A stretch of DNA of 64,000 nucleotides, from contig JAOPUZ010000041.1 in the NCBI GenBank assembly GCA_025966315.1, positions 1 through 64,000 of the forward strand, written 5' to 3'. The DNA comes from Frankiales bacterium (GTDB taxonomy: Bacteria; Actinomycetota; Actinomycetes; Mycobacteriales; Jatrophihabitantaceae). Positions 4,943-20,617 of this stretch are shown here, one piece after another. A program made the translations under genes and the position numbers. Numbering within the stretch: the first letter of the stretch is position 1; every line of letters begins with the position of its first letter. The notes below the pieces were generated by a model that was given only the letters and a program-made list of their open reading frames with translations, was not told the origin of the DNA and ran no database searches.

Positions 4943-5079
4943 ACCGCTGATCGAATGATCTTGACCAGCTGTAGTTGATCATCGGGCGGGTGCTGGCGCG
5001 AAGTGGCGCGACGGATCTGCTGGTCTGCCCAGCTGTTCCACGATGTTCCTGGTTGGGCCTGTCGGCGATCGGCGGGTTG

Positions 5080-6471
5080 TCAGGCGGTGGTTGGTGGTCC
5101 GGTTGCGGCGTTCCAGAGGGTGGACCATTGCTCGGCCCAGGGCCAGTGGGCGGGTAGGTGCAGCACGCGGCGCCGGGCCGGGCGGGCCAGGCGGGCCGGG
5201 ACGGCGACGAGGTGGCGGCGCAAGGTCGCGCCGCGGGCCACGGCGTGCGCGCCGCCGATCACGGTGCCGGCGGCGCGGAGCAGGTTGTGGCAGATGGCGG
5301 CGCAGATCGCCCACGCGCTGTTGGCGGCGAATCGGCCTGAGGGCATCCCGGACAGTGGTCCGTCGATCAGGTCGGAGTGCACGGTCTCGATGACCGCGTG
5401 GCGTCGGTGGGTGATGTCGGCCTGCGCTGTTGGCTCCAGGCTGTTGGTGAAGAACGGATGATGACGCCAGACCGGGAACAACTCATCGGTCCGGGCGCGG
5501 TCGCGGACCCGGCGCACGATCAGCCGGGCGGTCACCGGGTGCGTGGTCGAGGCGAACGCGGTGAACTGCACTTCGGCGACTTCGGCGTCGGAGATCAGCT
5601 GCCCGGTGTCGGGGTCTAGGACCGCGCCGGGATAGCGCACCGGCGTCCACGCATCCTCGCCGATCGCGGCGATGGCGCGCGCCACGGAGGGGTTCTTGGT
5701 GAGCACGAGCGAGAACCGGGCTCCGGCCCGCAGGCAGGCCCCGATCACGGCGCGGCTGCCGTAGGCGCAGTCGCCACGGAGCAGGACCTCGCTGCTGGCG
5801 CCGGCCGCCCGGGCGGTGCCGATGGCGTCGGTGACCATCGTCGCCGCACCTTTACCCGAACCCGCGCGTCCGGCCCGCAGCCGGATCCCGGCCACCACCG
5901 GCGCACCGGTCTCGGTGCTGATCGTGGTGATCAGCGGGGACAGGCCCTTGCGCAGGATCTGTTTGCCCGCGATCTTCGTGTGCCCGTAGGAGGCGCCCTG
6001 CTTGTGATGGCCATAGATCGGGCGCAGCAGGGAATCGATGTCCACGAACGCCCGCGTCCCAATGCCCGGTAACAAGTCGCTGTGCTGCACGAGGTTGACC
6101 AGATGCGCCCGGGCCACCGAGGCCAACTGCAGCGTGTGACCATGGGTGAACTCGCGCAGCAACTGACCCAGCGTCGCCGCGGCGTAGACCCCGCCGAAGA
6201 TCTGCTTCATCCCGCCCGCGCGGACCACGTCCAGGTCATCGATGCAATCCGCCCCAACGGCCATCCCCGCCACGATCGAGGTCAGCTTCCCCGCCGGGTT
6301 CACCCCCGCCGACACAACCCTCGTCGACCGGAACCGGACCCGCGTCCCGATCAACCCGGACAACCCCGCCTGCTCCGCCAGCGCCATCACCGGAATCAGG
6401 CCCGAGTACGACACCAAGTTGTCATCATCGAAGATCGGCGTGGCCCGCGCCCACGCATCAGGTAGCTTCAC
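5080..6471 (-). CDS. IS1380-family DDE transposase, 463 aa
   Basis: This transposase would excise and insert the surrounding element. The family pattern is clear. There is a first catalytic aspartate in FVDIDSLLRPIYGHHKQG, a second in LLRGDCAYGS and a glutamate in HAVIETVHSDL. The N-terminal helical part (SGLIPVMALAEQAGL) and the later GRFAANSAWAICAAICHNLL segment are also characteristic. Length is normal for the family and the frame is uninterrupted, so the element may be active. The gene is the only one between the inverted repeats. Confidence 0.9.
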   Translation of the reverse strand: MKLPDAWARATPIFDDDNLVSYSGLIPVMALAEQAGLSGLIGTRVRFRSTRVVSAGVNPAGKLTSIVAGMAVGADCIDDLDVVRAGGMKQIFGGVYAAATLGQLLREFTHGHTLQLASVARAHLVNLVQHSDLLPGIGTRAFVDIDSLLRPIYGHHKQGASYGHTKIAGKQILRKGLSPLITTISTETGAPVVAGIRLRAGRAGSGKGAATMVTDAIGTARAAGASSEVLLRGDCAYGSRAVIGACLRAGARFSLVLTKNPSVARAIAAIGEDAWTPVRYPGAVLDPDTGQLISDAEVAEVQFTAFASTTHPVTARLIVRRVRDRARTDELFPVWRHHPFFTNSLEPTAQADITHRRHAVIETVHSDLIDGPLSGMPSGRFAANSAWAICAAICHNLLRAAGTVIGGAHAVARGATLRRHLVAVPARLARPARRRVLHLPAHWPWAEQWSTLWNAATGPPTTA

Positions 6472-6576
6472 TATCAGTGCCTTCTGGTACGGAACGGATC
6501 AAGAGCTCGACACTCCCGATTCTTCCGAGCCAGAAGGCACTTTCACGTGATCACCACGCCGTCAGGCGGCTATCGG

Positions 6577-6594
6577 TCCACGGATCGAGGCTTA
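6577..6594 (-). repeat. IS1380 right inverted repeat
   Basis: Reverse complement of the left repeat. Its outermost three bases (tta on the plus strand) supply the TAA stop codon of the neighbouring nucleotidyltransferase gene. Confidence 0.85.
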
Positions 6595-7242
6595 GTCCCG
6601 ACCGGGTTCGAGTTCGGCCCTCCAGTCCGCGAAGAACGCCCTGACCTCAGCAACGTTCACCCCGCCGAGTTCGAGATCGTCATCGCTGTAACGCGAGAGC
6701 AAATCGATCATCTCGACGAAGACTCCGACCTCGAAGCCCGCGTCGACCTCCCGCGCCAACTCAAGCAGCTCCGACTTGCTGAACCGCCGACTAAGGGCGA
6801 AGACGTCCACGAAGTCACGGGCAGCGGCACGGTCAAACAGCGCGATCGCCTTGCGTCCGGCCAGCTCCGCCGGGGCGAACGTCGGACCAGCGATGCTGGC
6901 CATCGCGGGACGACCCGGAGCGGAGTCCAAAGCCAGGTCCACCAGCAGGTCCTTAGGTCCGTGGATGAGCAGGCGGCAGAACGTGCCGCCGTCCTGCACT
7001 GTGTCGACATCCCAACCGTGCCGAGCAGCCGCGGCAAAGAGCTGATCCCGCGCCCGACCAACATCACCAGCACCGGGCCTAGTGAAGAAGTCCAGGTCCT
7101 GGGTCGGACGCGCCGTCAGACCCTGTGCCAGCAATGCCCCTCCCCCGGCCAGCAGGAACCCATCACTAGCCGGCAGGCCGAAGAACAATTGCGCGACCTG
7201 CACCTGAAACGCAGTCAAACGACCGCCGTCCGCGCCAGTCAC
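6592..7242 (-). CDS. AbiEii/AbiGii-type (DUF1814) nucleotidyltransferase, putative toxin, 216 aa
   Basis: The protein has the nucleotidyltransferase core of AbiEii/MenT-like toxins: LLAGGGALLAQGL (about residues 31-42) followed by RPTQDLDFF (45-53) with the metal-binding aspartates. It also has the family-typical segment GRKAIALFDRAAARDFVDVFAL. Toxins of this kind attach nucleotides to tRNA or other targets. The GTG start shares bases with the TAG stop of the upstream HTH gene (TAGTG), and this is a better start than longer in-frame options. The stop lies inside the end of the IS1380 element, so the last residues may not be the original C-terminus. Toxin function is inferred from family and pairing. 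Confidence 0.75.
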   Translation of the reverse strand: MTGADGGRLTAFQVQVAQLFFGLPASDGFLLAGGGALLAQGLTARPTQDLDFFTRPGAGDVGRARDQLFAAAARHGWDVDTVQDGGTFCRLLIHGPKDLLVDLALDSAPGRPAMASIAGPTFAPAELAGRKAIALFDRAAARDFVDVFALSRRFSKSELLELAREVDAGFEVGVFVEMIDLLSRYSDDDLELGGVNVAEVRAFFADWRAELEPGRD

Positions 7243-7775
7243 TACGCCACGACCGGCACATCCAAGACACCACGAACCTGATCGATAAGCGGCGACCACG
7301 CCGAGCGCACCGCCCTGGGCAACACCAGCTCATCCCACAGATCAACCAGCAGCGCGCCATCGACATACGCAAGCACGTCCGCGTCGCCGCCCTCCCGCAA
7401 CACCAGCTCATACACCCGAGCCCGATCGCCACGATCAGACAGCCGAAACAGCCTCCCCGGCTGCGACCAGTTCACCGTCAACGGCAACTCCACCGAAGCC
7501 AACGCCAGCTCCACAACCAGACGTGGCAGGCGACTGGGCACACGCACCACACGACCCCGAGCGACCGTCACATCTGCGAACTCGATCCGCGGCCGAACCT
7601 CCAGTTCGTAACCAGCGGCAGCAACGAGCCGATCGACCGTGTCCAGCGACGGCGACTTCCGCCCATGCTCATACGCCGACACGGCCGTACGCGAGGTACC
7701 AGCCCGACCCGCAAGCTGATCCTGACTCAGACCTGCGCCTCGGCGCATCCACGCCAACAACTCGGCGCCGCGCAT
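7242..7775 (-). CDS. XRE-type helix-turn-helix regulator, putative antitoxin, 177 aa
   Basis: Residues ~5-60 form a Cro/C1-type HTH (WMRRGAGLSQDQLAGRAG, then SRTAVSAYEHGRKSPS), followed by a ~115-residue domain I do not recognise that probably contacts the toxin. The ATG at 7775 is preceded by GGAGG at six bases, so upstream in-frame starts are rejected. It overlaps the nucleotidyltransferase gene and is likely its antitoxin and co-repressor, acting on the palindrome just upstream. Confidence 0.75.
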   Translation of the reverse strand: MRGAELLAWMRRGAGLSQDQLAGRAGTSRTAVSAYEHGRKSPSLDTVDRLVAAAGYELEVRPRIEFADVTVARGRVVRVPSRLPRLVVELALASVELPLTVNWSQPGRLFRLSDRGDRARVYELVLREGGDADVLAYVDGALLVDLWDELVLPRAVRSAWSPLIDQVRGVLDVPVVA

Positions 7776-8199: not shown

Positions 8200-9177
8200 T
8201 CATTGCTGCGTACTTTCCGATGTGATCCGGTGCGCCCGGTGCGCCTCGCGGAAGGACGGGCGGTGGTGGTCGAGGCAGCTTAGCTGCCGGTCGAGTTCAG
8301 CGTCGACCGGACGACGTTGGCTCAGCGCCCAGGGCAGACCTCGTAACGCGAGGGTGACACCTACCAGCCAGTCGCGGTTCTTCGGGCGCTCGGCGAGCAG
8401 CCGAAGGCTGGTGGTCGCGGCTGTCGCTGGGCGCCGGTAGATCCATCGGGTCCATAAGGCGTTGCGTAGGCCGAAGGCGCGGAGCTTGGTGACGTTGGCC
8501 TGGCTGGGTCGGTGCTGGGCGACGATGTCACTTCGATAGCGCATTTTCCAGCCGGCGGCGGCCAGTTTGATGGCTAGCCCCTCCTCTTCGCCGCCCATGA
8601 AGAACTCTGGGTCGTAGCCGCCGACGGCGAGGTAGGCCTCGGCTCGGGTGATGCACGCCCCGGCCATGAAGCCGAGCAGTACTGCGCCTGGTATGCCGTC
8701 TTGTTCCAGCAGTGGGCTGTCAGCCATCTCGGCTGAGACTGGGTCGAGTCGCTGTTGGTCGCCAACCATGATGCGTGCGTTGATCAGCCCGAGCGCAGGG
8801 TGCGAATCGAGAGCGTCGGCCGCGCGGACGAGGCCGTCGCGTTCATACCAGCCGTCGTCGTCGCAGAAGGCGACGTAGGGTGTGGTCGAATGTTGGGCGC
8901 CGACGTTGCGTGCCGCAGCGCCGATGTTGCGCTTGAGTGCGATCACTTCGATCCCGTGGTAGGCGCGCAGGAGGTCAGCGGTCTGATCGCAGGAGCCGTT
9001 GTCGACAGCGATGATCGCGACGCCCAACGCGAGCAGCTCGGCCAGGATCGGGGACAACCGGTGGGCGCAGTTGTAGGTCAGGAGCACGATCGTGAGCCGC
9101 TCGCCCAACTCGGTCTCGGCCGCACCGTCGCGCGGGTCCTTGCCGCGCGCTGCGGCTTCTCGGGTGTCAGGCGCCAT
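8200..9177 (-). CDS. Family 2 glycosyltransferase, 325 aa
   Basis: This GT-A fold enzyme would transfer a sugar from a nucleotide donor to a growing glycan. The N-terminal domain shows LTIVLLTYNCAHRL, the aspartates of AVDNGSCDQT, and the metal-binding CDDDGWYE. The acceptor-side motif GGEEEGLAIKLAAAGWK is typical of rhamnosyl-type GT2 enzymes. There is no membrane segment apart from weak hydrophobic patches. It is the last gene of the nine-gene minus-strand glycan operon, and its ATG overlaps the end of the upstream GT9 gene by 11 bases. Confidence 0.85.
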   Translation of the reverse strand: MAPDTREAAARGKDPRDGAAETELGERLTIVLLTYNCAHRLSPILAELLALGVAIIAVDNGSCDQTADLLRAYHGIEVIALKRNIGAAARNVGAQHSTTPYVAFCDDDGWYERDGLVRAADALDSHPALGLINARIMVGDQQRLDPVSAEMADSPLLEQDGIPGAVLLGFMAGACITRAEAYLAVGGYDPEFFMGGEEEGLAIKLAAAGWKMRYRSDIVAQHRPSQANVTKLRAFGLRNALWTRWIYRRPATAATTSLRLLAERPKNRDWLVGVTLALRGLPWALSQRRPVDAELDRQLSCLDHHRPSFREAHRAHRITSESTQQ

Positions 9178-10093
9178 GAGTCACCGTTGCTGCGGTGTGT
9201 GCTCGTACCGCGGCGGCCAGCACTTCGTCCTCGGTGATTCTGGACAGAGCTGGGTCGAGCTCTTCGCCGTGCGGGTTGCCGGTTCCGTCGCCGTGCCAGA
9301 GCACTTGATGTCGTGGGTCGGCGGGGGGACCCCAGACGGCCGGTGAGACCGGGCCGAAGAGGATGACCGATGGCGTCGCATAGTTCGTCGCGACGTGGGC
9401 CGCTCCGGTGTCGCCGCTGATCAGTAGCCGAGCGTGGGCGATCAGGGCAACAAGCTCGCCCAGCGTGGTGGGGCCAACTGTCGCGACGTGAGCTTGCTGG
9501 GCGATGTGCCGGACGAGGTGCTGCTCGTCGGGACCTCCGGTGATCACGACTTCGTGTCCGAGCTTCCGCAATGCGGCGGCGACGCGGACGAACCGGGCCG
9601 CTGGCCATCGTCGCGAGGCGGACTTGGCCCCGCAGTGGATGACGGTCCGCCCCACCGGCACGGTCGCATCGGGCGGCGTCGGGAGCCGACCGGCCACGCT
9701 CGGCGTGGGAAGCGCGGGCGCGCGCAGCCCCTCGCGGATCAGCCGACACCAGCGCTCGACTTCGTGCTCTCCCGCGTCCCAGGCCAGACCGCGATGCCCG
9801 TAGCCGATCAGTCGTGCCGGCCGCGTAGCCTCGAGCAGCGCCCGGCTGCCCGGGCCGTTTCCGTGCAGGTCGATAGCCAGCTCAGGCATCTGCGGCGGGT
9901 CGATCAGCGGCGTCAGCTCATGTCCGTGCACAGTCGCGTCGACAGAGCCCGATAGCAGCGCGAACTGGCGAAGTGCCTCGGGGACCGCTAGTAGAATGCG
10001 CTCGGCTGGCAGCGCCTGGCGCAGCATCGCCAGAGCGGGCAGACCGGTGAAGAAGTCGCCTAACCCGAGGGCGCGTAGCACGAGAACGGTCAC
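9167..10093 (-). CDS. GT9 heptosyltransferase-like glycosyltransferase, 308 aa
   Basis: The protein matches the ADP-heptose:LPS heptosyltransferase family: LRALGLGDFFTGLPALAML at the N-terminus, IHCGAKSASRRWPAARF in the donor domain, and ISGDTGAAHVATNYATPS near the nucleotide site. It presumably transfers heptose from ADP-heptose, which is made by the adjacent GmhA/HldE/GmhB. The GTG start overlaps the hldE stop (GTGA). It is one of two GT9 enzymes in the operon, which suggests at least two heptose residues. The acceptor is unknown, since actinobacteria of this kind lack LPS. Confidence 0.85.
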   Translation of the reverse strand: MTVLVLRALGLGDFFTGLPALAMLRQALPAERILLAVPEALRQFALLSGSVDATVHGHELTPLIDPPQMPELAIDLHGNGPGSRALLEATRPARLIGYGHRGLAWDAGEHEVERWCRLIREGLRAPALPTPSVAGRLPTPPDATVPVGRTVIHCGAKSASRRWPAARFVRVAAALRKLGHEVVITGGPDEQHLVRHIAQQAHVATVGPTTLGELVALIAHARLLISGDTGAAHVATNYATPSVILFGPVSPAVWGPPADPRHQVLWHGDGTGNPHGEELDPALSRITEDEVLAAAVRAHTAATVTHGA

Positions 10094-11445
10094 CGGCGCG
10101 CGAGGTCGACCAACGTTGAAGTCGATTTCCCATCGAGGTAGCCGACCGTGAGAACCTCCCCGCCCCAGCTGCGGATCAGTTCAGCTTCCGGTAGCTCACC
10201 GGCCGTGTAATCACCGCCCTTGACCCAGATGTCTGGGCGCAGCGCGGCCAGCGCACGTTCGGGAGTGTCTTCCTCGAAGATGATCACCTGGTCGACATCG
10301 CGCAGCGCGGCGAGTACCCGCGCGCGGTCGGCGTGATGCTGCAACGGGCGCCCGGCGCCCTTGATCCGGCGGACCGACTCGTCGGAGTTGATCAGGACGA
10401 CCAGGCAGTCGCCGGCCGATCGGGCGGCGGCCAGCGTCTGAATGTGTCCTGCGTGCAGCAGGTCAAAGCAGCCACCGGTGGCCACGACCGTGCCACCGGC
10501 AGCTCGCACGCGCTCGATCGCGTCACCGGTCGGGGGCGCGCAGTCCGCGGCTGGCGTGAGCGATCCGACGCCGCCGGCGGCGATGAAAGCGGCCGCCGTG
10601 CGCACGCCATGCGCGGCGGCCTGACTGGGCAGCTCGCCATGGGCTAGGGCGGTGGCCGCGGCACCGGCGAAGCAGTCACCGGCGCCGCACGGGTCGCCGG
10701 TGGTGGCGCGCTCGACCGGGAGGTACTGGCTGGTGCCAGTGCCGTAGGTGAGAAGCGCGCCCCGAGCGCCGAGGGTCACGCAGACGCTGTGGGCGTTCCA
10801 ACGCGCCCGCAGGGTTTGCCCGGCCCGTCGGGCGGCGGCCAACGGAGTTCGGTCACTCGCCAGCGACGCGACACCGCTGAACGCGGCGGCCTCGGTGAGG
10901 TTAGGGGTGGCCAGCGCGACTCCGGCCACCGGCGTGGCGCCCCGCGGGTGCGGGTCCCAGACGATCGGCCCGGCGACGTGACCAAGCAGTTCGCGCAGCC
11001 GCTCGTCGCGAGCGGTGGCGCCGCCGTAATCGCTGACCAGGACGGCGTCCGCGGCAGCTAGTCGATCGCCGACCTCAGCGCCGACGTGGGCGATCTCCAC
11101 GCCGCCACCGGAGTCGAGCCGGGTCACGGTGTGTCCGTTGGCGCTTAGCCGGGTCTTGACCGGAGTGCGGCCGGTGGCCGGCATCGCGATGAGCTCGACG
11201 ATTCCGGCCAGCCGGGACCGTACCTCGTGTCCGGTGTCGTCGTCCGGCAGCGGCGCAATCAGGGTGATATCGGTGTCCCGATCGCGGGCCGCGAGTAAGG
11301 CGGCCAACGCCGCTCCGCCCGGGCGAAGCTCACGTCTAAGCTCGTCCAACACCGGCACCGGGGCGTCCGGAGTGAGCCTGTCGGCCCGGGTTAGGACGTC
11401 CACGTCGAGCAGGACGTCGCCGATCACGATCAGGTGCCGGCTCAC
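10090..11445 (-). CDS. hldE: Bifunctional heptose-7-phosphate kinase / heptose-1-phosphate adenylyltransferase, 451 aa
   Basis: HldE phosphorylates D,D-heptose 7-phosphate at C1 and, after GmhB removes the 7-phosphate, attaches AMP to give ADP-heptose. The N-terminal ~310 residues are a ribokinase-family domain (IGDVLLDVDVL, and GDPCGAGDCFAGAAA with the catalytic aspartate). The C-terminal ~130 residues are a cytidylyltransferase-like domain with the HxGH motif (TGGCFDLLHAGHIQTL) and NSDESVRRIKG. The GTG start at 11445 overlaps the gmhA stop. A longer in-frame extension upstream would run through gmhA and is rejected. Confidence 0.9.
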   Translation of the reverse strand: MSRHLIVIGDVLLDVDVLTRADRLTPDAPVPVLDELRRELRPGGAALAALLAARDRDTDITLIAPLPDDDTGHEVRSRLAGIVELIAMPATGRTPVKTRLSANGHTVTRLDSGGGVEIAHVGAEVGDRLAAADAVLVSDYGGATARDERLRELLGHVAGPIVWDPHPRGATPVAGVALATPNLTEAAAFSGVASLASDRTPLAAARRAGQTLRARWNAHSVCVTLGARGALLTYGTGTSQYLPVERATTGDPCGAGDCFAGAAATALAHGELPSQAAAHGVRTAAAFIAAGGVGSLTPAADCAPPTGDAIERVRAAGGTVVATGGCFDLLHAGHIQTLAAARSAGDCLVVLINSDESVRRIKGAGRPLQHHADRARVLAALRDVDQVIIFEEDTPERALAALRPDIWVKGGDYTAGELPEAELIRSWGGEVLTVGYLDGKSTSTLVDLARR

Positions 11446-12044
11446 AACGCCACCGCGGCGGGGTTGGCGCCGAGCAGCCGCTCGTCCATGGCCTCGCAGA
11501 CGAGGTGCAACGCGACCAGGTGCAACTCCTGGACGGCGGCCGTCGTCGGCGCGTCGATGCACAACGCTTGGTCGGCGAGGTCGGCCAGCGGGTTGGGTGC
11601 GGGCCCGGTCATCGCCCACACGGCGGCTCCCATCTCGCGGGCGCGTTGCGCCGCCCGGATCAAGTTGGCGCTGCGGCCCGAGGTCGACAAGAGCATGAGG
11701 ATCGTCTCGCCGCTGATGTGGGCTTGCACTTGACGGGCGAAGATCTCCTCGGCGCCGTAGTCGTTGGCGATGGCCGTGACCGCCGAGGTGTCGGAATGCA
11801 GGGAAATGGCCGAGAACGGCTGACGGTCGCGGCAGTAACGGCCGACGATCTCGGCGCTGAGATGCTGTGCCTGCGCGGCGCTGCCGCCGTTGCCGGCCAA
11901 CAGCAGCCGAGCTCCGGCCGGCAAGCGTTCAGCCAGGGTCACGCCCCAGGCTTGCGCCTGGTCCCACTGCTCCTCGCAACGTCCCAAAGCGCGCGCGAGA
12001 AGGCCGATGTGAGCGTGCGCCGTGTGGTTGGTCGTCGCGGTCAC
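11442..12044 (-). CDS. gmhA: Phosphoheptose isomerase (SIS domain), 200 aa
   Basis: GmhA converts sedoheptulose 7-phosphate to D-glycero-D-manno-heptose 7-phosphate, the first step of ADP-heptose synthesis. The single SIS domain has LLAGNGGSAAQAQHLSAEI and the phosphate-binding LSTSGRSANLIRAA. Length is that of the family. The GTG at 12044 overlaps the stop of the upstream GT4 gene (GTGA), and hldE follows with the same overlap, so the three are translationally coupled. Confidence 0.9.
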   Translation of the reverse strand: MTATTNHTAHAHIGLLARALGRCEEQWDQAQAWGVTLAERLPAGARLLLAGNGGSAAQAQHLSAEIVGRYCRDRQPFSAISLHSDTSAVTAIANDYGAEEIFARQVQAHISGETILMLLSTSGRSANLIRAAQRAREMGAAVWAMTGPAPNPLADLADQALCIDAPTTAAVQELHLVALHLVCEAMDERLLGANPAAVAL

Positions 12045-13273
12045 AGCAGCCCCCCGGACTGCTCGGCGGCCACCAGCTCGGCCTCGGGCCGGCGGCTCAT
12101 GACGGCGCGTAGGTAACTGCGTTCTGTCGAGCGGGCGACCTGATCCCAGGTGTACTTCAGCGCCCGCGCCCGCCCGGCCCGGCCGTAGGCGCGGCGGCGC
12201 GGCTCGTCGCCGAGCAGCGCCGTGACCGTTGCCGCCACCGCCCGGGGGCGACGAGGGGGCAGCAGGGCGCCGGTGACCCCGTCGACGACGGTGTCGAGCA
12301 GACCCCCGACGGCCGCGCCCACGACCGGTATCCCGCACGCCATCGCCTCCAGCGGGACGATTCCGAATGGCTCGTACCAGGGCAGGCACAGCATCAGTTC
12401 GGCGGAACGGATCAGCGAGGTGAGCTCGGTGTGCGGCACTTGTCCGATCAGATGGACCCGGTCGGCCACGCCCAGCTCGTCGGCCAGCGCCGCCAGCCGA
12501 CGCGCCTCAGCGTCGTGTCGGATGTCGTCGGCGTTCGGGCCTCCGGCGATAACCAGTTCGGCGTCCTCAATCCATTGCAACGCGGTGATGGCGTCGTCGA
12601 CGCCTTTGCGCGGCACGAGGCGTCCGACCACCAGCAGTCGGGGCCGCGCGGTGCGCGGTGCCCGCGGGCCGTCGGGGACGAACCAGTCGCAGTCCACGCC
12701 CGAGGGAACGATGTCGACTCGCGCTGAGTCCGCGCCCATCCGCACGAGTTCGCGCTTCTCGTCGGTGCACGAGGCGATCACCCGGTCGGCGCGTTCGGCG
12801 ACGTCGCGCTCTAGGGCTATCCGCTGTTCGGGGCTGGTGTCGGCCGCGCCTTGCAGGCGCCGTTTGACTGAGCCGAGCGCGTGGAAGGTCTGTACGAGCG
12901 AGATGTCCAGCGATGCCGCGACTTGGGTGCAGGCCAGGCCGCTCATCCAGAAGTGACCGTGCAGCACGCCCGGTTGCGAATGCTCAAGAGCGGCCTGCAG
13001 CTGCTGCGTAAACTGCGGCATGTGCGGCAGCAGCTCGTCCTTGGCGATGTGCTCGGCCGGTCCCGCGTCGAGATGGTGCACCATGACACCGTCACGCAGC
13101 GGCGCCGAGGGTGGCAGGTCGGGGTGGTCGCGGCGGGTGTAAACGTCGACCCGGTGCCCGCGCAGCGCCAAGGCGGACGCCAACGCGGCCACGTGCACAT
13201 TTTGGCCGCCGGCGTCTACTTCGCCGACGACCGCGAGCGGACTGGCATGCTCAGAGACCATGGCAATCTTCAT
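12041..13273 (-). CDS. Family 4 glycosyltransferase, 410 aa
   Basis: This retaining GT-B enzyme has the MshA/sucrose-synthase-like N-terminus AGGQNVHVAALASAL, donor-domain lysine motif GRLVPRKGVDDAI and the E-x7-E signature PFGIVPLEAMACGIPVV. The substrate is not predictable from sequence. It probably uses a UDP or GDP sugar. The preceding gene ends 36 bases upstream, the only gap inside the operon, so an internal promoter is possible but none is obvious. Confidence 0.85.
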   Translation of the reverse strand: MKIAMVSEHASPLAVVGEVDAGGQNVHVAALASALALRGHRVDVYTRRDHPDLPPSAPLRDGVMVHHLDAGPAEHIAKDELLPHMPQFTQQLQAALEHSQPGVLHGHFWMSGLACTQVAASLDISLVQTFHALGSVKRRLQGAADTSPEQRIALERDVAERADRVIASCTDEKRELVRMGADSARVDIVPSGVDCDWFVPDGPRAPRTARPRLLVVGRLVPRKGVDDAITALQWIEDAELVIAGGPNADDIRHDAEARRLAALADELGVADRVHLIGQVPHTELTSLIRSAELMLCLPWYEPFGIVPLEAMACGIPVVGAAVGGLLDTVVDGVTGALLPPRRPRAVAATVTALLGDEPRRRAYGRAGRARALKYTWDQVARSTERSYLRAVMSRRPEAELVAAEQSGGLL

Positions 13274-13309
13274 TGCTTGCGCCCTTTCATTTCATCCGTC
13301 TCGTGCTAC

Positions 13310-14275
13310 TCATCGGCCTGCGGTGGTCTTCACTGCGACTGTCCGCGCGAGCAGCTGATCCCAGTCGTGCAGGAAACGCTGCACGCCGTAGCGCGCCAGG
13401 GCGTACTCGCGAGCCGACTTGCCGGCCAGCCGAGCCGGCTCGGGATCAGCGGCAAACCTCCGCACCGCGGCGCGCAGCTTCTCCAGATCAGTGGAGATCA
13501 CACCGGCAGCGGGTGGAACGGCTTCGACCGCCTCGGTGCTGGCCACGGCGACCACCGGCAGGCCGAGCATCATCGCCTCGATCAGCGACAGGCCCAGCGA
13601 GGTCCAGCGCACCGGGTGCAGGTAGAGCCGGCGGCGGGCCAGCTCGCCGTGCATGCGAGCTTGGGGCACGTCGCCCATCAGGCGCACGCCGCGTGCCGGA
13701 ACCGATCCCCCCATCCCGAAGAGATCGATCGGCACCTCGCTCGCAAACCGGGCAAGGAGGTCAGCACCCACCATCCGCCCGCGCCGTCCCGCCTCGTTAA
13801 TCACGACCGCGGCCCGGGGCAACTCGCCGGTGTACAGCTCCCCCGGATCGATGACGCCGTGCTCGATCACCGTCGTCCGCGCCTGGCCGTTGTCCCAGAA
13901 CAGCTCATTGAAGTGGGTCACGTGCACCAACGGAAGGTCCGAACGATCAGCGATCGGATGCCTGGTGCCCACCGGGTGCGGCTCGGGCGCATTGTGCTCC
14001 AGGTAGATCGCCGGCAGCTCGGGACCCGGCCGGCGGCCCGTCCACTCGGCGGCGAGCGCAAGCTCCTGCGGCCGTTGCACGATCACCACGTCGATCGGCT
14101 CATGCCGCAGCTGCTCTGGGGTCCGTTCGACCACTGTGCCCGGCCAATCCCAGGTGCGGGCGCGTCCGCGTCCGTCCGGCCCGCGGTCGGCAAGCACCGG
14201 CAGCACATAGTCATGGCCGCCCTGCACGAATGCGGTGGTCCAGCTGCCGTGGACATGCCAGAGCAGGATCCTCAT
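13310..14275 (-). CDS. GT4-like glycosyltransferase, 321 aa
   Basis: The N-terminal domain starts MRILLWHVHGSWTTAFVQGG, and the C-terminal domain has VIEHGVIDPGELYTG and the signature PVRWTSLGLSLIEAMMLGLPVV, indicating a GT-B fold of the GT4 type, a little shorter than usual. The ATG at 14275 overlaps the stop of the upstream GT9 gene (ATGA). A longer frame extending to 15154 is a shadow of that gene. Sugar donor unknown; it acts in the heptose-glycan operon. Confidence 0.8.
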   Translation of the reverse strand: MRILLWHVHGSWTTAFVQGGHDYVLPVLADRGPDGRGRARTWDWPGTVVERTPEQLRHEPIDVVIVQRPQELALAAEWTGRRPGPELPAIYLEHNAPEPHPVGTRHPIADRSDLPLVHVTHFNELFWDNGQARTTVIEHGVIDPGELYTGELPRAAVVINEAGRRGRMVGADLLARFASEVPIDLFGMGGSVPARGVRLMGDVPQARMHGELARRRLYLHPVRWTSLGLSLIEAMMLGLPVVAVASTEAVEAVPPAAGVISTDLEKLRAAVRRFAADPEPARLAGKSAREYALARYGVQRFLHDWDQLLARTVAVKTTAGR

Positions 14276-15315
14276 CGAGCCGCCCCGCCGACCATGGCCC
14301 GCCGCGGCGCGCCGACCAGCTCGCGCGCGGCCCGCACCACCTCGGCCGGTTCGACGTGGGCCAGACACGGGTGTCCCGGCACCGGGCAACTGGTGGCGCG
14401 ACTGGCTCGACACGCCGCGTTTTGATCGCCCAGTACCCGGGTCGCGACCCCGTAGGGCGCCCAGCGCGTGGCCGGCACGACCGGCGCGAACAGCGAGACG
14501 ACCGGGGTCCCTACTGCCGCGGCCAGGTGCGCGGGTCCGGTGTTGCCGACCAGCATGACGCTGGCCTGTGCCGCGACCGCGGCCAACTCGGGCAGCGTGA
14601 AGCGTCCGCCGCAGTCCAGCCCCGCGCCGCCGGCCACCTCGGCAGTCAGCTCCGCCTCCGACTTGGGTCCGGTGACCAGCACCGTCGCGCCGGAGGCGGC
14701 CAGCTCGGCCACCACCTCCCGCCATTTGGCGGGTGGGTAGGCCCGGGCCGACGCGCTCACACCGGGGTGCACGACGAAGGGGCGCTGCGCTCCGACCTCG
14801 GCCCCTAGTTCGACGCTGGGTAGCGGCGCGCGCAACCGTAACCGGCCGTCGTCTCCGGCCGCGAGGTCGAAACCGGCCGCCCGGGCTACGGCCAGCATCC
14901 GCTCCGGTTCGGGGCCGTCCGGGGGCGGCGCGACTCGGACGTCGAGCAGCCGACCCGGATAGTCCTCGCTGATGGCGGTGATCCGAGCGACCCCGGCCAG
15001 CCGCAGCATCAACGCGGTCGGCAGGGCGGACTGATGGAAAGACGTGAGAATGACCGCTTGGTCGAAGCGGCGTGCAGCGACGCTGGCCCGGACCGCCTCG
15101 ATAGCTTCGGCCTCGACTGCCCCGGGGCGGCCGCTGATCCACGGGCAGTCCCATACCAGCACTTCCTCAACGCCCGGCAGCAACTCGGCCGCCGCAACGC
15201 CGAGCGGGCCGACCAGCATCGAGACCGGGGTGCTCGCCGCGACGGCGCGGACCGCAGGTCCGCTGATGAGGACGTCGCCCATGCTGTCGAGCCGGACGAC
15301 CAACGCGCCGCTCAC
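14272..15315 (-). CDS. GT9 heptosyltransferase-like glycosyltransferase, 347 aa
   Basis: This is the second GT9 enzyme of the cluster. Motifs are VVRLDSMGDVLISGPAVRA at the N-terminus, VHPGVSASARAYPPAKWRE in the donor-binding region and VGNTGPAHLAAAVGTPVVSL for nucleotide binding. A cysteine-rich C-terminal stretch (NAACRASRATSCPVPGHPC) is seen in some actinobacterial GT9 proteins. The GTG at 15315 overlaps the stop of the GT2-GmhB fusion (GTGA). It probably transfers heptose. Confidence 0.85.
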   Translation of the reverse strand: MSGALVVRLDSMGDVLISGPAVRAVAASTPVSMLVGPLGVAAAELLPGVEEVLVWDCPWISGRPGAVEAEAIEAVRASVAARRFDQAVILTSFHQSALPTALMLRLAGVARITAISEDYPGRLLDVRVAPPPDGPEPERMLAVARAAGFDLAAGDDGRLRLRAPLPSVELGAEVGAQRPFVVHPGVSASARAYPPAKWREVVAELAASGATVLVTGPKSEAELTAEVAGGAGLDCGGRFTLPELAAVAAQASVMLVGNTGPAHLAAAVGTPVVSLFAPVVPATRWAPYGVATRVLGDQNAACRASRATSCPVPGHPCLAHVEPAEVVRAARELVGAPRRAMVGGAAR

Positions 15316-16817
15316 CGCGTCACCCGGGCCAGGATGACATCGGCAGCGGCGCCAAGGTCCGGGCACACGAGCTCGGCTGCTTCGACCTCCTCGGGTCGGG
15401 TCGCCGGCGTCGGGACCAGCACCGCCAGTTGGGCGCCGGCGGCGGTGGCCGCCTCGATGTCAGCGCCGATGTCGCCGATGACCGCGCACTGGTGAACGGC
15501 CAGGCCCAGCGCGTCGGCGGCGGCCTGCATCAAACCGGGCGCGGGCTTGCGGCAGTGGCAGCCGTCGGCGTCCCCGTGTGGGCAGACCTGCCAAGTCGCG
15601 AACGGGCCGAGCAGCTGCTCGACCCGCGCGTTCACGGCGGCGACCTGCTCGGTGCGCAGCACGCCCCGGGCGATCCCCGACTGGTTGGACACGACCGCGA
15701 GACCCAAACCGGCTTCGCGTAGTCGGCGCAGGGCCTTCTCGGCTTCGGGCAGCGCCTCCACGAGGGCTGGGTCTCCGTTGTAGGGCACGTCACGCACTAA
15801 AGTGCCGTCGCGGTCGAGCAGGACGGCCCTTAACGGCAATGGCCACGGCTCGGCACCGCGATGCTGCCAGCTGCCTCGCAGCCAGTGCCACGCCGCGGCG
15901 GGCGGAATGGCCACGGTGGTCGCCAGCATCGCGCCGATTTCCCTCGGCGTCCGGGGGCCGGGCGCGATGCGAATCCATGCGAATCGGCCGGTCAAGGCCA
16001 GCCAGAGGGCGGCGGCCCCGGCCGGTATCGAGCGACGACGGCCGGTCACAATCGAGGCGACCGTCAAGGCAGCCGCCGCTGTAGTAAGCAGATGCGTCGG
16101 GCGGCGGCCGGGTTCGGCGTCGGCCCGCTGATACCAGCCTGGCCCATGCAGGCGGCGCATCAGGGCGTCGTCGGCGTTGCCTCGCTGTTGCCGCAGGCTC
16201 GCATTCCAGGGTGCCGGGCGCACCGGATGGCGAGTGGTCCGCTGGCCGCGATCGATTTGGTAACCACGCTCGACGATGCGTAGGGCGATGTCGGCGTCCT
16301 CCCGGAACGCGCGGGCGAACCGCTCGTCGAACCCTCCGACCTCTTCCAGTACCCGGCGGCGGTAGGCCATGTCCGCGGTTATCCATTGAGCGGTGGCCAG
16401 ACCAGCGGTACCTCGCTCCCAGTCGGTGGCGCGGCGGCCCGACGGCAGCGGAACCGTCAGTTGCGCTTGCGACCCAGCGACACCGGGTAGGGCCGAGTGC
16501 ACGTCGGCGGACAGCTCGTCCAGCCAATCCGGGTTGACGAGTACGTCGTCATCGAGGAAAGCGACCCACTCAACGTCCGTCGTCGTCGCGCGCCAGCCGG
16601 TGTTGCGCGCGGCAGCGGGACCGCGACCGCCGCTGCGCCGAACCTGCGTCCGTTGCGCCGTCCAGCCGTCCGCTCGGGGCAGCGGCGCGGCTCGCTCGCG
16701 GCGGTCATCGACGATCACGATGCTCTGCGGGCGGGGACCACTGCAGCCGTCCAACGATTTCAGGAGTGCGCCGAGCGAGGCGCGACCTATCGTTGGGATG
16801 ACGATCGAGAAGATCAT
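15312..16817 (-). CDS. Fusion: family 2 glycosyltransferase + GmhB-type heptose bisphosphate phosphatase, 501 aa
   Basis: Residues ~1-240 are a GT2 domain (FSIVIPTIGRASLGALL, FLDDDVLVNPDW, and EEVGGFDERFARAFREDADI). A hydrophobic stretch (~245-320) with membrane-like segments follows. Residues ~330-501 are a HAD phosphatase of the GmhB type: LLDRDGTLVRDVPYNGDP, VVSNQSGIARG, and the zinc ligands of CPHGDADGCHCRKP. GmhB removes the 7-phosphate of heptose 1,7-bisphosphate between the two HldE reactions, so the fusion supplies the missing pathway step. The ATG at 16817 overlaps the carbamoyltransferase stop. An alternative is that the HAD domain is a histidinol-phosphatase-like enzyme, but context favours GmhB. 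Confidence 0.85.
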   Translation of the reverse strand: MIFSIVIPTIGRASLGALLKSLDGCSGPRPQSIVIVDDRRERAAPLPRADGWTAQRTQVRRSGGRGPAAARNTGWRATTTDVEWVAFLDDDVLVNPDWLDELSADVHSALPGVAGSQAQLTVPLPSGRRATDWERGTAGLATAQWITADMAYRRRVLEEVGGFDERFARAFREDADIALRIVERGYQIDRGQRTTRHPVRPAPWNASLRQQRGNADDALMRRLHGPGWYQRADAEPGRRPTHLLTTAAAALTVASIVTGRRRSIPAGAAALWLALTGRFAWIRIAPGPRTPREIGAMLATTVAIPPAAAWHWLRGSWQHRGAEPWPLPLRAVLLDRDGTLVRDVPYNGDPALVEALPEAEKALRRLREAGLGLAVVSNQSGIARGVLRTEQVAAVNARVEQLLGPFATWQVCPHGDADGCHCRKPAPGLMQAAADALGLAVHQCAVIGDIGADIEAATAAGAQLAVLVPTPATRPEEVEAAELVCPDLGAAADVILARVTR

Positions 16818-18478
16818 CGACTTACCCCGAGGACGGCCCGCCGTAGCACGAATGGCCCGATCGCCAGCAGGTCGACCGGTGTCGAGCCGAAGCATTCCAA
16901 CGCGTCCTTGATGTCGTCGACCATCGGCCGGCCCGCCGTGTTCAGACTGGTGTTCACCACTACCGGCAGACCGGTGCGCCGCTCGAAGCCCTGAAGCATC
17001 CGGGCCAGCAGCGGCTCTTCACGCTGGTCGACGGTCTGGATTCGGGCCGTGCCGTCGACGTGGACGACGGCCGGGATCCGCTCTCGCCACCGCGGATCGA
17101 CGTCATGGACGAACAACATGTACGGCGATGGAATCGGGCCGCGGCTGAACAACTGGGCGGCGCGCTCCAGCAACACCATCGGTGCCACCGGTCGAAACTG
17201 CTCACGGCCCTTGACGTCGTTGAGTCGAGTCAGGTTCTCTGACCGGCCGGGGTGGGCTAGCAGCGAGCGATGTCCTAGGGCGCGCGGACCGAACTCGCTT
17301 CGCCCCTGGAACCAGGCGACGATGCCATCGCTGGCCAGTTCTTCAGCGACCGCTTCGGCCACGTCATCGGGCCGCTCGTAGGGCACTCTGGCGGTCCGCA
17401 ACGCTAATTCGATCTCCTCGTCGCTGAAGCCGCGACCGAGAGCGGCCGACGTGACCGGAGCGATCCGGTCCCCAGCCTGCGCCGCCAAGTAAAGCGCGCC
17501 CCCCAGGGCAGTTCCCGCGTCACCCGCGGCCGGTTGCACCCAGAGCTCTTCGAATGCCGACTCAGCGAAGACGCGGGTGTTGGCCACGCAGTTCAGGGCC
17601 ACGCCGCCGGCCAGGGCCAGCCGGCTCGCACCGGTCACATCGTGCAGCCAGCGGGCCAGGTCGAGCACCGTTTCCTCGAGTGCAAGCTGCACGCTCGCGG
17701 CCAGGTCAGCGTGCTCCTCGCCCCACTCCTGGTGTGGCTGGCGCCGCTTGACCAGCACGTTCCAGTCGACGCCGGCGGTGCGGAATCCGCCGTCCTCGGT
17801 GGCGTGCACGAACTGTCGCAGATAGTCGATGTGGCGTGGCGTTCCGTAGGAGGCGAGCGCCATGACCTTGTACTCGTCGCTGCTACGCAGGAATCCCAGG
17901 TGCTCGGTGGCGTCCTCATACAACAAGCCCAGCGAGTGCGGAAGCCGCTGCGATCGCAGTTGTTGTACGGCGCCGTCGGCGGCGAACCGGGCTGCCAGTT
18001 GGCTGTGTTGCTCGCCTCGGCCGTCGAAGACCAACGCGGCGCAATCCCCGTCGAACGGCGCGGCCAAGGCGGCCGAGGCGGCGTGTGCGACGTGATGCGG
18101 GACGAACCGGAGCTTGGCGGCGTCCAAGCCAGGTAGGGCGTCGCTGAGGAAGCTTCCAGCCTGCTGGGCGTAACTCTCGCGGAGGTGATCCCATGGGTCG
18201 TTGAGCCCGAGCTCGCCGGGTGAGAGATGCAAAGCGGGGTCGAAGGAGTACGTCACTGCGTCAAGGTCAGCCGGTTCGACGCCCGCCTGCTGCAGGCACC
18301 ACCGCGCCGCCGCATCGGGTAGCTCCCAGGCAGAGAAGGGCACCGGCCGCTTGCCGTGCTTACGCCGGCTGAACCGCTCCTCCTCGGCTGCGGCCACCGT
18401 GACGCCGTCGACGATCACGGCAGCCGCCGGATCGTGATAGATCGCGTTGATACCGAGTACGAGCATCGGTGAACTCAC
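16814..18478 (-). CDS. O-carbamoyltransferase, NodU/CmcH family, 554 aa
   Basis: These enzymes make carbamoyl-adenylate from carbamoyl phosphate and ATP and move the carbamoyl group to a hydroxyl, often on a sugar. The N-terminal Kae1-like domain has NAIYHDPAAAVIVDG, PHHVAHAASAALAAPF and ALAGGVALNCVANTRV. The C-terminal domain has FQGRSEFGPRALGHRSLLAH. Length fits the family. The start may be GTG at 18478 (GGAG almost adjacent) or ATG at 18466. It is the first gene of the glycan operon and suggests carbamoylated sugars in the product. Confidence 0.88.
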   Translation of the reverse strand: MSSPMLVLGINAIYHDPAAAVIVDGVTVAAAEEERFSRRKHGKRPVPFSAWELPDAAARWCLQQAGVEPADLDAVTYSFDPALHLSPGELGLNDPWDHLRESYAQQAGSFLSDALPGLDAAKLRFVPHHVAHAASAALAAPFDGDCAALVFDGRGEQHSQLAARFAADGAVQQLRSQRLPHSLGLLYEDATEHLGFLRSSDEYKVMALASYGTPRHIDYLRQFVHATEDGGFRTAGVDWNVLVKRRQPHQEWGEEHADLAASVQLALEETVLDLARWLHDVTGASRLALAGGVALNCVANTRVFAESAFEELWVQPAAGDAGTALGGALYLAAQAGDRIAPVTSAALGRGFSDEEIELALRTARVPYERPDDVAEAVAEELASDGIVAWFQGRSEFGPRALGHRSLLAHPGRSENLTRLNDVKGREQFRPVAPMVLLERAAQLFSRGPIPSPYMLFVHDVDPRWRERIPAVVHVDGTARIQTVDQREEPLLARMLQGFERRTGLPVVVNTSLNTAGRPMVDDIKDALECFGSTPVDLLAIGPFVLRRAVLGVSR

Positions 18479-18667
18479 TCTCCGCAGACCAAATACTTCC
18501 GCTGCGGGCTGAGCGGTGCGCGAGCACTGCTGTCAGCGTACAAGTCAGCGTCAACCATCCGGCAGGCTCCCGCCGATTCCCTGTCATGTTGAGCACGCCA
18601 CGAGCAGCCATCCCCGCCCAGCACAGCGCGCGGACGGCCGCGAGCACCGCAGGACTCGATTCAGGCG

Positions 18668-18763
18668 CAGCTACTCGACCGTCCTCAATTCCACCTCACC
18701 CGCTGCGACGTCCCCGACTACATCCACGTCCCGGGCGAAGTGGATCTGGTGCTGCCCTTCGCC
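18668..18763 (+). pseudogene. Fragment of a UDP-glucuronate decarboxylase-like SDR gene
   Basis: The plus-strand frame reads LLDRPQFHLTRCDVPDYIH and then VPGEVDLVLPFA, which closely follows the segment after the Rossmann motif in UDP-glucuronate decarboxylase (UXS) and related sugar-nucleotide dehydratases (CDVxDYxxVPGxVDLVLHFA). The similarity ends abruptly on both sides. Only about 32 codons survive, so this is a gene relic, beside a sugar cluster where such an enzyme would fit. Confidence 0.6.
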
Positions 18764-19467
18764 GCCCGAAACCAACGTGGCGGCGGCAGGACCTCCCTGC
18801 GGAACAGCGACCAGGTCTTCGAACTCGCGGTCGATCGAGTACTCGGTCCGATCGCCGCTGCAGCCGCTGCCGCGACGGCGGAAGACGACTGTCTCGAAAT
18901 GAGACGAGAGCCGTCGGTTTGACCTGGAACCAATGGCTCTTCGACCCGGGTATCCAGCGCACCGAGCGCAAACCCAGACGACACCCGGCCGGCGGCCCGC
19001 TTGCCGAGACGCGTCGGAGGTCGCCGCATGACCAAGCCTGTCACGCGCTGCCGTGCGGATTAGTAGCTGGCGCTGCTCTCGCATTGCCGCCAGCAGGAAA
19101 TATCAGCTCCCGCTGACCTGATCTCAAACCTCCTGCTACCGGCGATGACGACGACGACGAAGGACGCGAAGGTTGTGCTGCGGACCGTTTCATAGCCGCT
19201 CGCGAAGGGAAACACGATGACCAACGACCTGTTCGCGAGTGATGTGTTGCGCAGCGTCACGAGACGCAGGTGTGGTTCCTCGCGGCGCACCTCTTCGACG
19301 TGGTGGTCGTGTTGGTGATCCCGGCGTGCAGTGACGGTCCTTCGCTCGGCCGAGGTTTGCGGTCACCCGCGGACATCCCATGTGCCTGAGGCACGACGCT
19401 GGCGCGGTCGTCGTGCCGGTGGGGTCGCAGAGCCGAACCAATCGAGCTGCTAACGAGGAGAGTTTGC
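18764..19467. other. Decayed intergenic DNA
   Basis: I find no intact gene here. An open plus-strand frame continues from the SDR relic for about 50 codons without recognisable similarity. A short ATG frame near 19,217 (MTNDLFASDVLRSVT...) runs 33 codons with a possible GAAGGG site, and may be another gene start that lost its body. Confidence 0.4.
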
Positions 19468-19599
19468 ATGGCATCCACCCAGGTCGACGCGCGCGTCGAC
19501 AGCGCCGCGCGGTCCGGGCATGCCCACCACGCTCGGGCGGAGCACCGTTGGTGGTCGCTGGCCGTGATCGGGCTGGTGCTACCTGGGTGCTACCGCTAG
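19468..19599 (+). pseudogene. N-terminal remnant of an MFS (DHA2-like) transporter
   Basis: A well-placed GAGGAG precedes this ATG. The 43-residue frame ends with AEHRWWSLAVIGLVLPGCYR. A histidine-rich leader followed by HRWWxLAVIxL is how actinobacterial EmrB/QacA-type drug transporters begin, just before their first membrane helix. The frame then meets a stop and no further helices follow, so only the start of the gene remains. Confidence 0.45.
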
Positions 19600-20134
19600 T
19601 CGGTAATCCTCCACGGCGCATGTCCTCTGCAAGCTCGCGTCGGGCGGGCTGGGGAACCTCGGCCTGGTCGGCTGGCGACTTGTGGATAGCGGTGCAGGAA
19701 CTGGGAGTTGGCCCTTCGGGGCATATACATCGTCGCCAGCAGAGTGGCAGCGAGGCCCCGGGCATCACTGCCGGCCGTCGCCGGACCATCGGAAGGGTCA
19801 ATCCCGCGCGGGCGGCTTAACGCATAACGACGCACCACCCAGCCGACGACGCTCCCAGACGTTGCGCGCTGCGGTGTTGTGCCGAGGTCGGCACAACACC
19901 GATTGCGCCGACCTCGTAGTTGTGCCGACCTGGGCTTGGTTCGCCTGCCATATAAGGGTTCCGCCGGAAACAGGTCGTCACAATCCGAGCTCATCGTCGA
20001 GCCGTGAGCGGGGCGCGCCAGAGATCGGCCGGCGACTCTCCGGCACCGGGCTCGTGAAGATCCGCCTTCCTGGACGCAGGACGCCCATAAAAGATAGGGG
20101 GTTCGCGTGCGGGCCGCCGTGCGCTCGAGTGGGG
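19600..20134. other. Decayed intergenic DNA around a strong palindrome
   Basis: No gene is recognised. The stretch contains the 26-base palindrome at 19,874-19,899 and a related half-site at 19,919-19,931, described separately. Confidence 0.4.
19874..19899. repeat. Perfect 12-bp inverted repeat with a third half-site downstream
   Basis: GTGTTGTGCCGA and its exact reverse complement are separated by GG. The half-site AGGTCGGCACAAC within it recurs in inverted orientation at 19,919-19,931. A two-base spacer is too short for a good RNA hairpin loop, so a dimeric repressor operator is more likely than a terminator. No intact target gene remains beside it. Confidence 0.5.
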
Positions 20135-20355
20135 CCCGGGGTTCGGTCACATAAGCGTGAGCCGCGGTCGCGGCGTCCTTCGCCTGCTGTTGCCGTTGCA
20201 GGGACACGGCGAGTTTCTGCTCAACGACCTGCGCACTGCTCTCGAGCTCTCTGATGTGGCTCTGGATCATCACGATGCGCGCGCTAACCACCCCCACCTG
20301 TGAGGCCAGTGCCGCCTTGGCGGCGTTCGCGCTCGCGGGTTGAGAGTCGGCTGGG
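20135..20355 (-). pseudogene. Fragment of a secreted coiled-coil (NlpC/P60 N-terminal-like) protein
   Basis: The minus-strand frame reads a signal-peptide-end-like QPASANAAK and then a heptad-rich coiled coil (ARIVMIQSHIRELESSAQVV, then EQKLAVSLQRQQQAKDAATA). N-terminal coiled coils of this kind are found in actinobacterial peptidoglycan hydrolases with NlpC/P60 domains. There is no recognisable catalytic domain downstream and no clear start, so it is probably a broken gene. Confidence 0.4.
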
Positions 20356-20565
20356 ATTCGGGGGTGCGGACGGATTTTCTGTCGGGTGCCGGTTCTGATC
20401 AGTGCCGCGTAGCGGCAGCGGTCAACACCGCAATGCGACGGACTGCGTTGCTATTCGGCGTGTGCGCCTGAATTCGCCGCCCCCGCTGCAACCTCGACAG
20501 GCACTCGGGCCTCTCGGCTAAGAAGCCGCCCTTCCAACTCCCCCTTGTCGCACGCCTTGGCGAGG

Positions 20566-20603
20566 GCGCGCCCAGGACGGGACAGACCGTCCGGGGCGCG
20601 CCG
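20566..20603 (-). terminator. Hairpin terminator after the CWB2-like gene
   Basis: GGCGCGCCC-a-GGACGG pairs with CCGTCC-g-GGGCGCGCC across a short loop, giving a 15-bp stem with one mismatch 15 bases beyond the stop codon. No U tract, as is common in high-GC actinobacteria. Confidence 0.65.
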
Positions 20604-20617
20604 GGTGAACGGTGGAG

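Follow-up and report, generated by a model that had tools for sequence, protein, structure and literature searches.

A predicted heptose glycan operon of a Frankiales bacterium is, by gene content and order, a rearranged member of the Streptomyces cwg type

What would a bacterium of the Actinomycetota, without lipopolysaccharide (LPS), make with a set of genes for a heptose donor, and does this set belong to a known system? The question is raised by an operon on the minus strand (18466 to 8200) of a 64,000-nucleotide stretch of DNA, hereafter the window, from a Frankiales bacterium (GCA_025966315.1, contig JAOPUZ010000041.1, positions 1-64,000). Nine uninterrupted open reading frames, annotated with Pfam on the longest frames and with NCBIfam on trimmed genes, encode in 5' to 3' order an O-carbamoyltransferase, a fusion of a family 2 glycosyltransferase (GT2) with a GmhB-type phosphatase, a GT9 (GT9a), two GT4 enzymes (GT4b, then GT4a), GmhA, HldE, a second GT9 (GT9b), and a GT2. 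The starts chosen from overlap and upstream sequence are 18466, 16817, 15315, 14275, 13273, 12044, 11445, 10093, and 9177, with an alternative at 18478 for the carbamoyltransferase. Seven of the eight junctions overlap, six by 4 bases and one by 11 bases (9167/9177), and the remaining one is a gap of 36 bases (13274-13309). An earlier note on this DNA had described nine genes with all but one of their junctions overlapping, the same enzyme families (GmhA, HldE, a GmhB domain, two GT9, two GT4, two GT2 domains, and an O-carbamoyltransferase), and no polymerase, flippase, or ligase among them, all of which the coordinates and domain matches bear out. Its view of the cluster as unexplained, by contrast, does not survive comparison with similar actinobacterial clusters, which reveals homology to the cwg operon of Streptomyces coelicolor; judged by its genes and their order, the window cluster is a rearranged member of this known operon type, and the kind of system is not new.

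The cwg ("cell wall glycan") operon, a name that passages in PMC6767563, PMC5839063, and PMC5882110 credit to Hong et al. 2002, comprises sco6179-6190 and is described as a target of sigmaE, the cell envelope stress factor (PMC6767563), and as vancomycin-induced (PMC6767563, PMC5882110); the passages concerned in PMC6767563 and PMC5839063 give its product as a prediction only. We searched the sigmaE promoter printed for sco6179-6190 (PMC6767563) in 392 genomes of a single genus, which we infer to be Streptomyces, and it matched in four, once exactly and three times with one mismatch. Behind the promoter in three of these genomes (L143, L145, and L146), tblastn matches 12 genes in the order epimerase, carbamoyltransferase, GT2, HAD phosphatase, GT9, GT4b, GT4a, GmhA, HldE, GT9, GT2, GT2, which includes all nine window genes and fits cwgA-cwgL. 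The literature names SCO6186, the eighth cwg gene, a phosphoheptose isomerase, SCO6187, the ninth, a bifunctional synthase/transferase (both in PMC5839063), and SCO6183 (cwgE), the fifth, a putative heptosyl transferase (PMC5882110); these names agree with positions 8, 9, and 5 of the 12-gene order and thus support the cwg identity. According to their kinship labels, the promoter-bearing genomes belong to a different order from that of the window and share only its class. The same gene order also occurs in named Streptomyces loci found without the promoter, such as that of S. violaceoruber (L083), where the published promoter is absent even when three mismatches are allowed.

The fourth promoter-bearing genome (G571, a single contig, one mismatch) keeps only one GT2 and GT4a; most of the operon is gone, about 6 kb of other sequence replaces its downstream part, and HldE yields no match in this genome at E 1e-20. 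A cwg-type operon can therefore be lost, since here the promoter persists without the heptose genes. In the window, the core block GT9-GT4b-GT4a-GmhA-HldE lies in the same order on one strand, but the 12-gene set is incomplete, with cwgA reduced to a relic and a single terminal GT2, so that the window operon is a member of a wider cwg type rather than a complete cwg operon. Its fused, cwgA-less form shows which parts of the operon can be dropped or joined.

The genes for the heptose donor are the best characterized part of the cluster. GmhA (11442..12044, like all nine genes on the minus strand; counterpart of cwgH, SCO6186; PF13580, 6e-20) is a predicted sedoheptulose 7-phosphate isomerase that matches TIGR00441 (8.6e-43, 146.1 bits, below the cut-off of 209.45) and the solved phosphoheptose isomerase 1tk9 in the PDB (E 1.8e-36), and its residues H61 and E65 are conserved in 98/98 and Q172 and H180 in 99/99 of the loci compared. 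These and the following residue counts take, for each gene in each locus, the best piece with at least 45% identity, so that "all of n" applies to the nearer homologues. HldE (10090..11445; counterpart of cwgI, SCO6187), the putative heptose 7-phosphate kinase and heptose 1-phosphate nucleotidyltransferase, is 48-60% identical to 14 aligned homologues, keeps HxGH in 102/102 loci and the aspartate of GAGD in 101/101, and matches a heptose 7-phosphate kinase (4e84, E 1.8e-11) and a cytidylyltransferase-like structure (5x9q, E 5.7e-34). Its domain II model TIGR02199 (182.3 bits against a cut-off of 181.5) is passed at its curated cut-off; TIGR02198 (domain I; 2.1e-29, 102.6 bits, cut-off 345) and the GmhA, GmhB, and heptosyltransferase models all remain below theirs. 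The GmhB-type HAD phosphatase domain sits behind the GT2 domain in a single open reading frame (15312..16817, counterpart of cwgC plus cwgD; PF00535 8.3e-12, PF00702 1.4e-13). It matches NF006506 (9.7e-33, 113.2 bits, below the cut-off of 178) and the solved GmhB structures 4pnh and 2gmw, and retains aspartates 335 and 337 together with the Cys/His metal set in 66/66 loci compared. The structure model of the fusion has a predicted local distance difference test score (pLDDT) of 88.6, and the helices that it places between the two domains may be peripheral. The two genes are likewise joined in 15 other aligned loci, whereas the halves match apart from each other in the three operons behind the promoter, an arrangement that we read as two genes. 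For the residues tested in GmhA, GmhB, and HldE we assume the catalytic roles of the E. coli enzymes. To judge from these matches, GmhA, both HldE domains, and GmhB, with their active-site residues, form the enzyme set of a nucleoside diphosphate (NDP)-D,D-heptose route.

The full adenosine diphosphate (ADP)-D,D-heptose route proposed in the earlier note thus stands as regards the enzymes, and also as regards the lack of the epimerase HldD, for which the whole genome holds nothing above the curated cut-off (best 124.3 of 274.6 bits), although a gene may have been overlooked because the genome is 95.8% complete and in 77 contigs. Less firm is the choice of ADP. The arginine of the HldE motif (F/L)XXGRSTT (STTR5) has been linked to the use of several nucleoside triphosphates (NTPs), including those of cytidine and uridine (CTP and UTP), in passages of PMC11573728 and PMC11461863. 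This position holds R in 78/102 and H in 24/102 of the homologous loci, and K (residue 440) in the window. Since the arginine is not strictly required for broad NTP use, as PMC11461863 notes, the lysine leaves such use possible. ADP-heptose is most likely the donor.

A cwgA-like gene bears on the same question. Upstream of the operon and divergent from it lies a relic of an NAD-dependent epimerase/dehydratase gene (18665..18766, plus strand), 34 codons long, whose 34 residues match residues 57-90 in the protein of a relative with 67.6% identity (L108; E 4e-11) and whose DNA is 75.7% identical over 103 bases (L108:3544-3646); the full-length gene of this relative has the same divergent orientation. 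Seven cwgA-like queries detected no further pieces at E <0.01 in 18400-24500. Of the 85 relatives examined, 46 have a cwgA-like gene within 10 kb, so that the gene is not universal. The absence of an epimerase, also claimed in the earlier note, accordingly holds for the nine genes, but is qualified by these relatives and by the relic that the window keeps. Five cwgA-like proteins that we scanned have dTDP-glucose 4,6-dehydratase as their nearest model (122-148 bits, all far under the cut-off of 365.1), and a paralogue 50% identical to the protein of the relative is encoded on contig C74 of the window's genome. All this, along with the arginine that most homologues carry at the STTR5 position, agrees with a donor other than ADP-D,D-heptose, either a heptose modified by a cwgA-like dehydratase/epimerase encoded elsewhere or a cytidine or uridine diphosphate heptose. 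We regard such a donor as rather unlikely, though a serious alternative, given that the cwgA of the window is a relic, its HldE has K instead of R, and the paralogue sits in a separate polysaccharide locus.

The transferases that would use the donor are more divergent. GT9a (14272..15315, cwgE counterpart; PF01075 2.9e-21) conserves D14 in 95/95 loci, N258, T259, and H263 in 96/96, and G260 in 91/96. In all 96 it carries N where the aligned solved heptosyltransferase I carries D, and because of this replacement its donor may be a sugar other than heptose, which would make GT9b the likelier user of heptose of the two. GT9b (9167..10093, cwgJ counterpart; PF01075 3.6e-25) conserves D13 in 55/55 and D-T-G-x-x-H in 56/56 loci compared, and its best NCBIfam model is RfaQ (75.1 bits, below the cut-off of 467). 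Neither of the two reaches the equivalog cut-offs of WaaC (TIGR02193; 63.6 bits for GT9a and 62 for GT9b, of 185.3) or WaaF (41.6 and 57.9 of 134.6). An LPS-like core was considered as the product and rejected, there being no HldD above its cut-off and both GT9 proteins scoring far below the LPS cut-offs. GT4b (13310..14275, cwgF counterpart) is a divergent GT4-like protein with a weak best Pfam match (PF13692, 1.5e-8); its AlphaFold2 model (pLDDT 83.7) nevertheless resembles solved GT4/GT-B enzymes, with a GT-B mannosyltransferase as the best Foldseek match (7qsg, E 3.5e-10, TMq 0.69). GT4a (12041..13273, cwgG counterpart; PF00534 2.2e-37) is MshA-like and scores 252.4 bits against TIGR03449, below the cut-off of 462.5. 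The terminal GT2 (8200..9177; PF00535 2.1e-19), a counterpart of cwgK or cwgL, shares 38-40% identity with the two GT2 genes that close the 12-gene series in the promoter-bearing operons L143, L145, and L146. At the opposite end of the operon, the O-carbamoyltransferase of the NodU/CmcH/TobZ type (16814..18466, cwgB counterpart; PF02543 3e-52, PF16861 2.2e-64) is 69-70% identical to the gene in second position behind the cwg promoter in these operons and keeps the histidines of HHxxH in 38/38 loci compared. Simple hydropathy revealed no convincing transmembrane anchor in the nine proteins, which contain only a few 19-residue stretches with means of 1.5-2.0 and top values of 2.03 (GT4b) and 2.02 (the last GT2).

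Taken together, we consider it probable that the operon directs the cytosolic synthesis of a carbamoylated, D,D-heptose-containing glycan of the envelope, for whose export genes outside the operon would be needed. GmhA would convert sedoheptulose 7-phosphate into D-glycero-D-manno-heptose 7-phosphate, the kinase domain of HldE would yield the 1,7-bisphosphate, the GmhB domain would strip the 7-phosphate, and the nucleotidyltransferase domain of HldE would produce an NDP-D,D-heptose, of which ADP-heptose is the likeliest form. On the cytosolic face of the membrane, the GT4, GT2, and GT9 enzymes could then assemble a short glycan that contains heptose, to be decorated by the carbamoyltransferase, exported, and finally fixed to the envelope by proteins encoded elsewhere. 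The proposal starts from enzyme families, conserved residues, and the cwg gene order, and from these we infer the reactions, the order of transfer, which transferase uses heptose, the site of carbamoylation, the lipid carrier, export, anchoring, acceptor, linkage, and final product. The role in the envelope is suggested by the homologous operon of S. coelicolor being a sigmaE envelope-stress target. Proteins of the types needed for the last steps exist in the window's genome: the C74 locus that holds the cwgA paralogue (L169, C74 50001-66000; 4978-13606) also encodes Wzx-like, Wzy_C, GT2, GT61, and methyltransferase proteins, and we found one LCP protein, so that flippase, polymerase/ligase, and LCP types are all present.

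Several points weigh against this interpretation. The Wzx/Wzy-type locus is separate from the operon, with nothing that ties the two together. Several operon proteins score below the curated equivalog cut-offs, as given above. The streptomycete wall polymers teichulosonic acid and polydiglycosylphosphate are presented without heptose in PMC11481543, from whose main text the word is absent, and a passage of PMC2543016 confines L-glycero-D-manno-heptose to Gram-negative bacteria, a statement that concerns the L,D form only. As for the cwg identity, two of the promoter-bearing operons (L143 and L145) come from close relatives, with 97% identity across 5.4 kb, and HldE is in two pieces in the second of them (L145, G554), so that the three operons do not amount to three independent intact cases. 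PMC5839063 labels the fourth cwg gene, SCO6182, a putative dehydratase, whereas a GmhB-like HAD protein stands in fourth place here; a naming slip of the HisB type may explain the label. Finally, a strict regular expression found no sigmaE-like site upstream of the window operon. This absence carries no force, since the strict pattern was equally missing ahead of the cwgA-like gene of 12 named Streptomyces loci, where start codons were set mechanically; it matched 14 of 2400 random stretches, and a looser pattern hit eight sites, scattered over 7 of 11 loci.

The cwg operon has served as an envelope-stress marker since 2002. Among the matches listed in the open-access literature, we identified no report of its product, and the window cluster offers a testable prediction for it, namely a carbamate-esterified glycan containing D,D-heptose. 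Going further, it is conceivable, although we would hold it only tentatively, that many Actinomycetota without LPS make such an envelope glycan, that it is raised under wall-antibiotic stress in Streptomyces, that the operon moves between lineages and swaps tailoring genes much as an O-antigen locus does, and that these bacteria are NDP-heptose producers. Mammalian ALPK1 is known to be triggered by NDP-heptose, of which these bacteria would, if this is true, be a source.

The cwg type is widespread yet patchy. HldE matches at E 1e-20 occur in 28/61 related genomes, and close HldE (E 1e-60 or better) in 81/393 genomes drawn evenly from the class and in 36/123 genera, the window's own genome being included in both counts. 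At least 80 named loci, from Streptomyces, Geodermatophilus, Blastococcus, Lentzea, Arthrobacter, and others, hold HldE. For gene order we used 102 loci (79 named records and 23 others) collected via HldE or the promoter and therefore, in contrast with the 393 genomes, not an even sample; they include two pairs of near-copies at about 97% (L083/L099 and L143/L145), and L026 was omitted as lying on the same contig as L107. Once 17 loci with short upstream flanks had been set aside, the order GT9-GT4b-GT4a-GmhA-HldE was present on one strand within 6.5 kb in 74/85, and each of the 11 exceptions lacked one or two of the four upstream genes at the expected place. Named records of Streptomyces, Geodermatophilus, Lentzea, and Arthrobacter, among others, have this core block. 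Order kept to this extent argues that the cluster is more than chance. A carbamoyltransferase lies within 10 kb in 40/85 loci and a second GT9 within 4 kb downstream in 55/85; these counts and that of the cwgA-like gene are lower bounds because the flanks on the other side vary. All conservation counts come from tblastn, and the clustering of open reading frames relied on long mechanical frames that may mis-split genes.

This breadth also bears on whether the product might instead be a secreted small molecule, a carbamoylated antibiotic that contains heptose, of the kind of septacidin or hygromycin B. Septacidin of Streptomyces fimbriatus does use NDP-heptose, according to a passage in PMC11461863, and the PDB matches of the carbamoyltransferase include tailoring enzymes of antibiotic pathways, namely the novobiocin carbamoyltransferase 9s2t (E 3.9e-87), TobZ, and GdmN, although this resemblance may be a sampling effect. 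Taking HldE as a proxy for the block, the even-sample counts by genome and genus speak against a small molecule, as do the six glycosyltransferase domains, the lack of polyketide synthase, nonribosomal peptide synthetase, resistance, and efflux families among the nine proteins, and the envelope-stress control described for the homologous operon in PMC6767563. We consider this origin very improbable, and an antibiotic cluster was rejected on its wide conservation and on the absence of scaffold genes among the nine.

Some loci in this collection stand apart. Five of the Arthrobacter/Planctomonas type (L033, L035, L072, L088, and L105) have a second HldE (33-37% identical), another GT9-type gene, and an aldehyde dehydrogenase (Pfam names from L033) directly downstream of their cwg-like block, perhaps a second heptose pathway beside the first. 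Blocks of actinobacterial cwg-like type also appear in a Chloroflexi metagenome-assembled genome (L054) and in Bacillus sp. AZ43 (L048, UNVERIFIED_ORG), both probably misbinned or mislabelled.

The history of the window cluster differs from that of its genome. In a tree of PolA, the single species marker used, the genome groups with its own genus (support 100/100), whereas in a tree of GT4a, GmhA, HldE, and GT9b the window clusters with four representatives of other genera in its family (100/100), and a constraint that keeps the genus together on the latter tree is rejected (p-AU 1.6e-5). The four-protein tree rests on a query-anchored alignment of 21 rows, some of them partial (G001 for HldE, G015 for GT4a, G036 for GT9b) and one without GmhA (G043); in the PolA alignment G015 and G016 fill less than half of the columns, and both trees omit G041, which has the cluster without a PolA match, the second copy of G049, and other HldE-matching relatives. 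The genus grouping was fixed before the tree was built, and its test was chosen after the HldE identities were known. This conflict suggests horizontal exchange of the cluster between lineages, a simpler reading than an old duplication with differential loss. The G+C content of the cluster (0.683-0.733 in 2-kb bins) lies at or above the top of that of the rest of the window (0.610-0.683).

The region on the downstream side of the operon (1606-7299) looks like a mobile or defence patch. It encodes a protein that matches AsnC-ligand-binding and, weakly, TIR domains (1606-2580), a transposase of the DDE type (5080-6471), and a toxin of the AbiEii type (6592-7299). The transposase and the toxin-antitoxin-type genes, together with the reduction of cwgA to 34 codons and the loss of most of the operon behind the promoter in G571, could mean that the operon is in decay and yields little or no product in this organism. 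We find this improbable, since all nine reading frames are open, the tested catalytic residues are present, and the promoter-proximal carbamoyltransferase is full length.

The interpretation given in the earlier note is thus partly supported: the NDP-D,D-heptose enzyme set without HldD, the transferases, and the O-carbamoyltransferase stand, while the unexplained status of the cluster, the donor, and the epimerase call for revision. Compared with the LPS inner-core route to ADP-heptose (GmhA, HldE, GmhB, HldD, WaaC/F), the window shares the predicted GmhA/HldE/GmhB chemistry, by family, and GT9 transferases, but differs in a genome with no HldD above its cut-off, in GT9 proteins far below those of WaaC, WaaF, and RfaQ, and in the additional GT4, GT2, and carbamoyltransferase genes. 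With septacidin-type pathways, going by their description, it has in common the use of NDP-heptose in actinobacteria, and it is set apart by the lack of small-molecule scaffold genes, by its wide conservation, and by the envelope-stress regulation of its homologue. From the cwg operon it departs in the fusion of cwgC and cwgD, in a cwgA that is a divergent relic, and in one terminal GT2 instead of two, whereas it shares with it the gene families and the order cwgB-cwgK, the first eight proteins being 46-70% identical to those of the promoter-bearing operons, which stood in this comparison for the sequence of S. coelicolor itself.

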